From an uncultured Bacilli bacterium (GTDB taxonomy: Bacteria > Bacillota_I > Bacilli_A > RF39 > UBA660): 38,164 nt of DNA. The notes beneath the pieces were generated by a model. That model was given only the letters and a program-made list of their open reading frames with translations. It was not told where the DNA came from and ran no database searches. Below, in pieces: positions 1-38,164 of this stretch. Location of the stretch: contig CANQVV010000003.1 of the NCBI GenBank assembly GCA_947627385.1, positions 1 through 38,164 of the forward strand, read 5' to 3'. Position 1 is the stretch's first letter; each line of letters starts with the position of its first letter. Made by a program: the position numbers and the translations under genes.

Positions 1-285
1 AAAGAAGTAAAAAATATAAGTTATGTCTATAAAACAGGAATGCCAAGTACATCAGGTGTATCAGAAGATATGGAAGTGAATTTAACATTAAATTATTCTA
101 ACGAAGAAGTGCCAAAAGAAGAAATTCCAAAAGAAGAAATAAAAAAAGATGAATATGTAGATCAAAAAGCAGATAGTGTTCAAACTGGAACAATGACAAT
201 TGGAATAATTACATTAATTGGCGTAATTGTATATTTAACTTATTACTTAATAGTAAAAAGAAAAAACAAATTATATAAATTGTAA
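1..285 (+). CDS. C-terminal end of a surface protein with a membrane anchor (partial)
   Basis: The reading frame is open from the first base, so the 5' part lies outside the window; the internal ATG at 40 is probably not the start. The visible 94 residues have a Thr/Ser-rich segment, a Glu/Lys/Pro repeat (EVPKEEIPKEEI), the motif SVQTGT, one hydrophobic segment of about 20 residues and a basic tail (VKRKNKLYKL). Motif, hydrophobic span and basic tail in this order resemble a sortase sorting signal, but QTGT is not a canonical LPxTG, so it could simply be a C-terminal membrane anchor. The bulk of the protein is probably extracellular. Function unknown. Confidence 0.6.
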   Translation, partial: KEVKNISYVYKTGMPSTSGVSEDMEVNLTLNYSNEEVPKEEIPKEEIKKDEYVDQKADSVQTGTMTIGIITLIGVIVYLTYYLIVKRKNKLYKL

Positions 286-11480: not shown

Positions 11481-12008
11481 ATGAAAACTTTTAAAGATAA
11501 GAAAGGTTTTACTTTGATAGAGTTATTAGCAGTAATTGTTGTTCTAGCTATTGTAACAGCGCTTGCTATGACTACTATGCTTCCTCTTATGAACAAAGCA
11601 ATTAAAAATGGTTTTGTTGATGAAGCTAATGCTGCAAGAGAAACGGCATCTGATGTTATGACATTAATCGGTATTGGTTCTTTTGATGAACCAGAAGCTG
11701 GCCCTGATTATCAATCCAATGATAATAAAACATGTATTTCTCTTAAACTAATGGCTGAAAGAGGATTATATGAAAAAGATATAGAATATTTCACAAATGG
11801 AGATTATGCTGGAAAGGTAATTATTACTAAATCTGGTGAGAGTAGTAATAATTATACATATAAAGTAGTTATGCATAATGATAGATATTATACTGGCAAA
11901 ACAGATGGCGGAAAAGTTACTGATTCTGATGATGATGTCAAAAATTATGATAAAACTACTTATCCTGATACAACATTTAATTGTACAACTAATGATATTG
12001 GGGACTAA
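11481..12008 (+). CDS. Type IV pilin-like protein
   Basis: A 175-residue prepilin-like protein. The start is ATG 11481 rather than TTG 11478, because GAGGTGA lies seven bases before it. After a ten-residue basic leader (MKTFKDKKG), FTLIELLAVIVVLAIVTALA gives the processing site with Glu at +5 and the assembly helix. The soluble domain has two cysteines (NKTCIS, TFNCTT) and is Asp/Asn-rich. The first 30 mature residues are almost identical to those of the next gene, two bases downstream, so the pair arose by duplication and is probably co-translated from one promoter. Confidence 0.83.
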   Translation: MKTFKDKKGFTLIELLAVIVVLAIVTALAMTTMLPLMNKAIKNGFVDEANAARETASDVMTLIGIGSFDEPEAGPDYQSNDNKTCISLKLMAERGLYEKDIEYFTNGDYAGKVIITKSGESSNNYTYKVVMHNDRYYTGKTDGGKVTDSDDDVKNYDKTTYPDTTFNCTTNDIGD

Positions 12009-36387: not shown

Positions 36388-37224
36388 ATGTTAGTTTTAG
36401 GTAAAATAATAAAAATTAATAGTGATACTTTTACTGTTAAAACTGCCAAAGAAATTATTAATGCTAAGTCAAGGGGAAAATTTCGTAATTTAAATATTAA
36501 ACCTTTGGTTGGGGATAATGTTTTAATTGATACAGAAAAAAGTATTATTGAAAGTATTAATCCTAGAAAAAATTATTTAATGCGTCCCCCAGTAGCTAAT
36601 ATTGATTTAGCTCTTATTGTTACAAGTATAAAAGAACCAGATATAAACTTAACTTTATTGGATAAATTAATTAGTATCATCTCAATTAATAAAATAGAAC
36701 CTGTAATAGTATTTACTAAGTTAGATTTAATTAATAGTGAAGAATTAAAAGAAATAGATAAATTAAAAAAATATTATCAAAAAATAGGTATTAAAGTATT
36801 TGATAATCAAAATAAAAAAAGTATTATTAATTATTTAAAAGGTAAAACTGTTACATTATGTGGTCAAACGGGGGCAGGTAAAACAACATTAATAAATATT
36901 TTTGATAAATCATTAAATCTAAAAACTAGTGCTATATCAAATGCACTGGGAAGAGGTAAACATACTACTAGAATTGTTGAACTTTATAATATTTTAGATT
37001 TTTATATTGTTGACACTCCTGGTTTTTCTTCTCTTGATATAAATATTTATTCAAAAGAAGAAATAAGAAATAGTTTTAGAGAATTTAATAATTTAAATTG
37101 TCGTTTTAAAGATTGTAATCATGATAAAGAAATTGGTTGTTTAGTTAAAGAAAATGTAGATAATGGTCATATATTGTTATCAAGATATGAAAATTATTTA
37201 AAATTTATTAAGGAGTCAAAATGA
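36388..37224 (+). CDS. rsgA: Ribosome small subunit GTPase RsgA
   Basis: A 278-residue circularly permuted GTPase that helps 30S maturation. An OB-fold start (residues 1-65) is followed by G motifs in the order G4 TKLD (110-113), G1 GQTGAGKT (159-166), switch GRGKHTTR (188-195) and G3 DTPG (209-212). The C-terminal zinc site is C238, C243, H245 and C251 (NCRFKDCNHDKEIGC). It is slightly shorter than the usual 290-300. It starts three bases after prkC and overlaps rpe by ATGA. Confidence 0.94.
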   Translation: MLVLGKIIKINSDTFTVKTAKEIINAKSRGKFRNLNIKPLVGDNVLIDTEKSIIESINPRKNYLMRPPVANIDLALIVTSIKEPDINLTLLDKLISIISINKIEPVIVFTKLDLINSEELKEIDKLKKYYQKIGIKVFDNQNKKSIINYLKGKTVTLCGQTGAGKTTLINIFDKSLNLKTSAISNALGRGKHTTRIVELYNILDFYIVDTPGFSSLDINIYSKEEIRNSFREFNNLNCRFKDCNHDKEIGCLVKENVDNGHILLSRYENYLKFIKESK

Positions 37225-37847
37225 TATCAGTAAGTTATTTAAAAAGTATATGTAGTAAGAAAGAAACAATAAAAAAAATAGATGAAAGTATAGCAGATTA
37301 TATTCATGTTGATTTAATGGATGGTATTTATGTAAATAATAAAAATTTTACAATTGAAGAAGTTTTAAATGATTTAGTTAATTGTCATAAAAAATTAGAT
37401 ATTCATTTAATGGTTCAAGAACCTTTACCATATATTAAAGATTTAATAAATTTAAATGTTTGGAATATTACTTTTCATCTAGATGCTACTAAAAATCCTA
37501 AGAAGATTATTGATTATGTCAAAAAACATCATATTAATGTTGGCGTAGCTATTAATCCCCAAGATGATATTCATATAATTGATCAATACTTAAATTTAAT
37601 TGATTATGTATTAATTATGAGTGTAGTACCAGGTTTAGGAGGTCAACAATTTATGATGGAAATATTAGAAAAAGTTAAATATTTAGAAGATAAAAATGTT
37701 TTAATTGGTATTGATGGGGGTATTAATAATATAACAATTAAATATTTAGAAAATTATAAAATAGATAATATAGTAAGTGGTTCTTATGTTTGTATGAGTG
37801 ATAATTACAATGAAAGAATCAATGAATTGAAAAATATTGAAATATAA
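37221..37847 (+). CDS. rpe: Ribulose-phosphate 3-epimerase
   Basis: A 208-residue TIM-barrel enzyme that interconverts ribulose 5-phosphate and xylulose 5-phosphate in the pentose phosphate pathway. Motifs: YIHVDLMDGIYVNN (metal-site His/Asp), DIHLMVQEP, TFHLDA, VLIMSVVPGLGGQQF and IGIDGGI, with VSGSYV binding phosphate. Start ATG overlaps the rsgA stop. Last gene of the operon, as in Bacillus. Confidence 0.94.
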   Translation: MISVSYLKSICSKKETIKKIDESIADYIHVDLMDGIYVNNKNFTIEEVLNDLVNCHKKLDIHLMVQEPLPYIKDLINLNVWNITFHLDATKNPKKIIDYVKKHHINVGVAINPQDDIHIIDQYLNLIDYVLIMSVVPGLGGQQFMMEILEKVKYLEDKNVLIGIDGGINNITIKYLENYKIDNIVSGSYVCMSDNYNERINELKNIEI

Positions 37848-37851
37848 TTAT

Positions 37852-37874
37852 AGTTACAGAGATGTAACTTTTTT
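37852..37874 (+). terminator. Terminator of the rlmN-rpe operon
   Basis: AGTTACA (37852-37858) pairs with TGTAACT (37863-37869) around GAGA, followed by T's. Confidence 0.88.
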
Positions 37875-37923
37875 CTTGAAATAAATTTCTACGACAAATT
37901 TTCCACAAAATGAAAGCAAAATC

Positions 37924-37950
37924 TTGACACTGGGGGGGGTATTATATAAT
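37924..37950 (+). promoter_or_regulatory. Promoter with poly-G tract in the spacer
   Basis: TTGACA (37924-37929) and TATAAT (37945-37950) are separated by 15 bases that contain eight G's (37932-37939). Two more G's would give the ideal 17. It reads toward the gene at 38119. Confidence 0.65.
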
Positions 37951-38046
37951 TACCTTGTAAAATAAGGATAGGTAAATTATATAAAAGATAATAACAAAAA
38001 TTATTTACATAATAAAAAAATAATATATACATAAATACGATAAATA

Positions 38047-38055
38047 TGATAAAAT
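38047..38055 (+). promoter_or_regulatory. Second, extended -10 promoter candidate
   Basis: TGATAAAAT at 38047-38055, about 64 bases before ATG 38119; no convincing -35. It could give basal expression of the last gene. Confidence 0.35.
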
Positions 38056-38118
38056 AAAAAAGTAAGATATACATTAAAGAATAATAATTATCCATAATAA
38101 TAAAAGGAGTAAAGATTT

Positions 38119-38164
38119 ATGGAAGAAAATAGTAATCAAGATAAAAAGAAGATGATAATAACAT
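38119..38164 (+). CDS. Start of a gene cut by the window end
   Basis: AAAGGAG (38103-38109) lies nine bases before ATG 38119. The 15 visible residues, MEENSNQDKKKMIIT, are charged and turn hydrophobic at the edge, like a short cytoplasmic end before a membrane or signal helix. The stretch before it (37875-38118) holds the poly-G promoter and an AT-rich leader, and no gene. Identity unknown. Confidence 0.6.
   Translation, partial: MEENSNQDKKKMIIT

Follow-up and report, generated by a model that had tools for sequence, protein, structure and literature searches.

A run of eight G residues separates the −35 and −10 elements of a promoter close to the end of the window (that is, the whole stretch of 38,164 nucleotides that we analyzed, contig C3 of its assembly), and at least 22 promoters built in this way are present in the genome of the uncultured member of the Bacilli from which the window comes. 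Because nearly all of the 22 poly-G promoters precede genes for surface proteins, random on/off control of those proteins is probable; in particular, we put at roughly 0.78 the probability, as judged by comparing sequences, that these promoters form a genome-wide set of slipped-strand switches acting through the promoter spacer on surface-protein genes, in the manner of porA and tp0126. This reading draws on the architecture of the promoters, their copy number, their placement, the differences in run length among near-identical copies, and their off-optimum spacing, each of which is directly observed.

The poly-G promoter in the window

The sequence TTGACACTGGGGGGGGTATTATATAAT (positions 37924–37950, plus strand) comprises a −35 hexamer, TTGACA (37924–37929), that is kept in 21 copies in the genome, a spacer of 15 nt (37930–37944) with the layout CT-G8-TATTA, and a −10 hexamer, TATAAT (37945–37950). 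The G run itself, GGGGGGGG, occupies positions 37932–37939 and consists of 8–10 G in the paralogues. These coordinates were exact when checked against the sequence, confirming the initial annotation, which had placed eight G residues between TTGACA and TATAAT at a spacing of 15. Immediately upstream of the −35 element is a conserved stretch of the promoter cassette, TTTTCCACAAAATGAAAGCAAAATC (37892–37923, plus strand), that is common to most of the copies in this genome. The gene upstream of the promoter (37221–37847, plus strand) is most likely rpe, encoding ribulose-phosphate 3-epimerase, a name that comes from sequence motifs rather than from a family search. It is followed on the same strand by a weak hairpin with a T-run (37852–37874; −6.4 kcal/mol, z −1.4), a possible terminator for which a terminator scan made no call.

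A motif resembling a DnaA box, TTTTCCACA, is found exactly 16 nt before the −35 element in 8 of 19 copies in the genome of the window (for example at window positions 37892–37910; 0.26 in shuffled sequences). As a general upstream element this motif was rejected, being confined to the copies in this genome and a few other genera; in other species, a CAACA motif occurs ~20 nt upstream of the −35 element.

Poly-G promoters are dispersed throughout the genome

The assembly, which by inference is of the metagenome type, comprises 1.16 Mb in 66 contigs and is 71% complete, with an estimated contamination of 0.67%. Closely matching records are MAGs of uncultured Bacilli from rabbit gut, together with one rumen record that shares a short pattern. 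A genome-wide search with the pattern TTGAC-N0-6-G6+-N0-10-TATAAT returned 21 matches, and the reversed pattern, used as a control, returned none, which excludes a chance arrangement. A G7 search of the assembly located 22 runs of at least seven G, every one of which lies inside a promoter spacer and measures 8–10 G; the 22nd run, at C16:165, falls outside the search pattern (TTGACA-AATTTTC-G8-TATACT) and has a membrane-protein gene downstream. Eight G are present in 13 of the copies, nine in seven and ten in two, and one spacer carries an interrupted run (G9-AGG).

The spacers of these 22 promoters are 15 nt (nine copies), 16 nt (eight), 17 nt (three), 18 nt (one) or 20 nt (one) in length, whereas the most common spacer among ordinary TTGACA/TATAAT promoters in this genome is 17 nt (16 of 35). 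It would thus take one or two additional G to bring most poly-G promoters to the optimum. Comparison of spacers of 15 or 16 nt with all other lengths in the two sets of promoters gave a Fisher p of 3 × 10−6, a value that, like within-genome p-values in general, overstates the evidence because paralogous copies are not independent. The poly-G copies are spread over at least 18 contigs and precede several protein families.

Downstream genes resemble genes for surface proteins

Among the ORFs downstream of poly-G promoters in eight genomes, 97 of 99 encode a hydrophobic segment within the first 60 residues, compared with 13 of 37 genes in the window (p = 3 × 10−15, with the 37 genes of the window alone serving as the control). 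Together with the adhesin-type domains Laminin_G_3 (LamG) and ALK_LTK_GRD, which are found in downstream proteins, these N-terminal segments suggest that what the promoters control is surface-exposed protein, as at porA. In the genome of the window, the downstream genes fall into three main kinds: type A genes begin MEENSNQDKKK and have a leader of ~170–180 nt, type B genes begin MEVINKYRK and start ~30 nt after the −10 element, and type C genes encode a Laminin_G_3 domain; Pfam and NCBIfam searches with the type A and type B proteins found no family. An ordinary promoter, TTGACA-N17-TAAAAT, precedes a LamG-type paralogue in the same genome (L118, C24:11000–12500, match at 11543, minus strand); this promoter is framed by the inverted repeat AACACATA...TATGTGTT and adjoins an apparent divergent helix-turn-helix gene.

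The groups of downstream proteins include lectin-like LamG proteins, camelysin-like proteins with the motif 'YAYFQV', and a large family whose members end in 'RPVFYLSS', for which structure prediction gave a pLDDT of 41. In the relative 016_44, the proteins have a conserved N-terminal anchor and exchanged C-terminal parts, the latter including glycine-rich ALK_LTK_GRD domains. Many short versions of surface proteins also occur in 016_44 (146–151 aa, ending ...CTNIQCAIDELYKANF; L080, L102, L108, L112 and others), and these anchor-bearing versions are possibly truncated or silent copies. The downstream proteins of G054 and G117 are of different kinds.

A clear exception to the surface-gene rule is L201 (G117 C4:35673–38200), where a poly-G promoter precedes a gene for a protein that lacks a membrane segment, MGFIKAFAGALGGTFADQWKDYYG.... 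In another relative, a poly-G promoter (G9, spacer 17) lies before a signal-peptidase-like gene with a weak Peptidase_S26 match (L109:928–1545, minus strand); this gene is possibly SipW-like, and its product might process surface proteins of the YAYF type. Four tandem camelysin-like genes at L227 (G009 C9:9966–14976) are each preceded by TTGACA...GATAC-G8/9/9/10-TATAAT, in which the run adjoins the −10 element and the spacers are 18–20 nt.

The length of the G run varies among near-identical copies

In the relative G009, 22 of the 23 promoter cores do not differ outside the run, which contains eight G in 11 copies, nine in 11 and seven in one. The run is more variable than each of the 110 neighboring alignment columns, and close pairs of copies differ in run length about as often as distant pairs do, a pattern that has the appearance of a fast-mutating tract within an otherwise homogenized cassette. 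As at porA, the homopolymer lies between the −35 and −10 elements, and its length varies among near-identical copies both in G009 (7–9 G) and in the genome of the window (8–10 G). We also considered compensation between the G count and the remainder of the spacer, which was rejected across lineages (rho 0.19).

Poly-G promoters recur across the genus and family

Strict matches to the pattern are present in 25 of the 38 species of the genus, with five or more in 19 of these and a maximum of 40 per genome. This species count is an undercount, as illustrated by G003, which is without a strict match yet has 31 runs; those sampled are mostly TTGACTTC-G8/9-TAATA-TATACT, with a spacer of 15 or 16. 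At the level of the family (probably UBA660, order RF39 in GTDB), matches were found in 28 of 150 sampled genera, several of them multi-copy and with different flanks, and a class-wide sample yielded matches in just 3 of 341 genomes from outside the family, at one site each. The reversed-pattern controls gave no match in the genome, genus, family or class-wide searches. Genera differ in where the run sits within the spacer and in the surrounding bases.

Species with few or no poly-G promoters (G001, G002, G004 and G019) have 0–4 G7 runs per genome, and the runs inspected in G002 and G004 sit in contexts other than promoters of this kind. In G054, G095, G270 and a camelysin-like set (G009, G006 and G008), the spacers, measured to TATAAT as the putative −10 element, are 18–20 nt and thus beyond the optimum, and in the camelysin-like set the run is near this putative element. 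G008 also contains ~10 copies of the repeat TTAGTAGTTCTAATAAGTAGCATC-G9/10-TTATTGTAACACCCTAATATC (L234–L236, L239–L242, L244 and L246), a different poly-G type with no recognizable TTGACA/TATAAT promoter.

The promoter cassette appears to have been placed before other genes, because the leaders of type A genes hold a short relic of the start of a type B gene (ATGGAAGTTAATAACAAAAAATAA; MEVNNKK-stop); in the window copy, the ATG of this relic is lost. At the rpe locus, a poly-G promoter is present in 2 of 30 species (G000, the genome of the window, and G009), with different genes behind it.

The gene at 38119 and alternative explanations

In the window, the poly-G promoter is followed by a conserved leader of ~168 nt (37951–38118, plus strand), common to type A paralogues, and by the start of a surface-protein gene whose ATG is at 38119 and whose first 15 codons, MEENSNQDKKKMIIT, run to the end of the contig (38119–38164, plus strand). 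Because the gene leaves the contig at this point, the window alone gives no basis for judging the initial annotation's suggestion of a start like that of a membrane protein, but the suggestion does hold for a near-identical paralogue on contig C19 (557 aa, MEENSNQDKKKMIITLVVGIVTLLILVIGATYAYFQV), in which a membrane segment is present. Within the leader is a second promoter-like element (38026–38055, plus strand; TATACA-N18-TAAAAT, with TG upstream) that is nearly invariant across long leaders, and one such leader, on contig C20 (L019), contains it without a poly-G promoter in the available sequence. These features would be explained if the 38119 gene were transcribed mainly from the second element and the poly-G promoter were accessory, an arrangement that we regard as somewhat unlikely: a promoter scan found five sites like this element versus 6.1 expected in shuffled DNA, and in type B genes, as well as in most genes of other species, the poly-G promoter is just ~20–70 nt before the start codon, so that a second promoter has no space. 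Given the presence of the second element, the interpretation of the G run as a switch is firmer for type B genes and for the relatives than for the 38119 gene.

The G run might instead be a fixed element that has a structural or recognition role in a class of surface-gene promoters, for instance as the binding site of a regulator or as a means of tuning a weak promoter, with lengths that drift slowly. A modal run length of eight in most species of the genus, including 30 of 34 runs in 016_44, is in keeping with such an element, as are the equal G counts of orthologous loci that share a promoter core (three pairs, in a scan limited to runs of at least 8 G) and the partly conserved stretch ~20 nt upstream of the −35 element, which could be a regulator site. 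Mismatch repair points in the same direction: mutS and mutL are intact in the genome of the window and present in nearly all relatives, and slippage in an 8-G run should therefore be slowed. (Hypermutation through loss of mismatch repair was rejected for the presence of these genes.) We nevertheless consider a fixed element unlikely, as half of the G009 copies differ in run length while the remaining core is frozen, the spacers avoid the optimum of ordinary promoters, and the position and neighbors of the run change among genera, unlike those of a fixed binding site. That the promoter simply spread by duplication with its genes, the G run having hitch-hiked, would fit the flanks shared by copies within a genome and the relic in type A leaders, which is a sign of cassette reuse, but is very improbable, because flanks, run positions and protein families are unrelated across the many genera in which this architecture recurs. 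Finally, several copies are located at contig ends of an incomplete assembly, as might be expected of an artefact of assembly or binning (collapsed repeats or contamination); this explanation is scarcely credible, however, since internal copies lie in unique contexts (for example after rpe in both G000 and G009), estimated contamination is low, and the arrangement recurs in dozens of separate genomes.

Discussion

In the reading that we favor, the promoter would be of the sigma-A type and the G run its mutable part. G residues would be gained or lost through slipped-strand mispairing, which would shift the distance between the −35 and −10 elements, giving a spacing of 15 with eight G, 16 with nine, and 17, the optimum in this genome, with ten. 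Each run length would specify a different level of transcription, and because that level would depend on run length, the downstream surface-protein gene would be set low or high at random. With at least 22 such promoters before genes for membrane-anchored or exported proteins, the result would be a combinatorial, stochastically varied cell surface. Slippage may take place in growing cells, alter transcription, and play a role in interactions with the host or with phage. The phase-variable reading put forward in the initial annotation gains support from the comparisons made here, namely from paralogous promoters that are identical except in G count and have spacers just off 17 nt, from a near-exclusive placement before surface genes, and from recurrence across genera with unrelated flanks.

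Change in the length of a promoter-spacer tract is, as had been stated at the outset, a known means of switching surface genes, with experimental precedents in porA and tp0126 (PMC7864442). At porA of Neisseria meningitidis, the promoter of which was originally described by van der Ende 1995 (cited in PMC5084427), a poly-G tract between the −35 and −10 elements alters their spacing and the transcription of a surface protein, and shortening this spacer from 17 lowers transcription (PMC7864442). Similarly, tp0126 of Treponema pallidum is transcribed best when its poly-G tract gives a total spacing of 17 (PMC7864442). The promoters described here share with porA a poly-G tract in the spacer before a surface-protein gene, but porA is one gene in a Gram-negative pathogen, whereas here there are at least 22 promoters in one genome, in an uncultured lineage of the Bacilli, before different protein families. 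With tp0126 and the tpr genes they share a promoter poly-G and several surface genes per genome; the treponemal genes are different ones from another phylum, and the tprL run overlaps the −10 region, whereas every copy here shows the spacer layout.

The Vlp proteins of Mycoplasma hyorhinis are a multigene surface family encoded in a single gene cluster, with a poly-A tract in each promoter region. Compared by description, the two systems are alike in combining a surface multigene family with a homopolymer in each promoter region in AT-rich, low-G+C bacteria, but a system of the Vlp type was rejected, since the run here is of G rather than A and the copies are dispersed over at least 18 contigs, rather than clustered, and represent several protein families. 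Stochastic switching of surface genes, as proposed here, is also brought about in gut bacteria by invertible promoters (Jiang et al. 2019, cited in PMC11868660). They depend on inverted repeats and a recombinase, however, and an invertible promoter was rejected because no clean inverted repeats flank the poly-G promoter.

For the family as a whole, we would give even odds to a promoter-switch system with 20–40 promoters per 1-Mb genome, in which a movable cassette would lie before unrelated surface genes and the spacer would fall below the optimum by one or two bases (in other lineages, exceed it by one to three), and through which each cell would display a random subset of many adhesins. A literature search that lay largely outside the subscription journals found no paper linking RF39 with phase variation or describing such a system, and both the scale (20–40 promoters per genome) and the lineage appear to be new. 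Switches of the poly-G spacer type are known for a small number of pathogen genes; here, they appear to be the standard means of controlling the surface repertoire in an uncultured lineage of gut bacteria whose genome is 1.2 Mb. If this is true, metagenomes that are already available could be used to read the tract lengths directly, and random variation of the surface on this large scale would bear on how gut commensals persist, resist phage and are recognized by the immune system.
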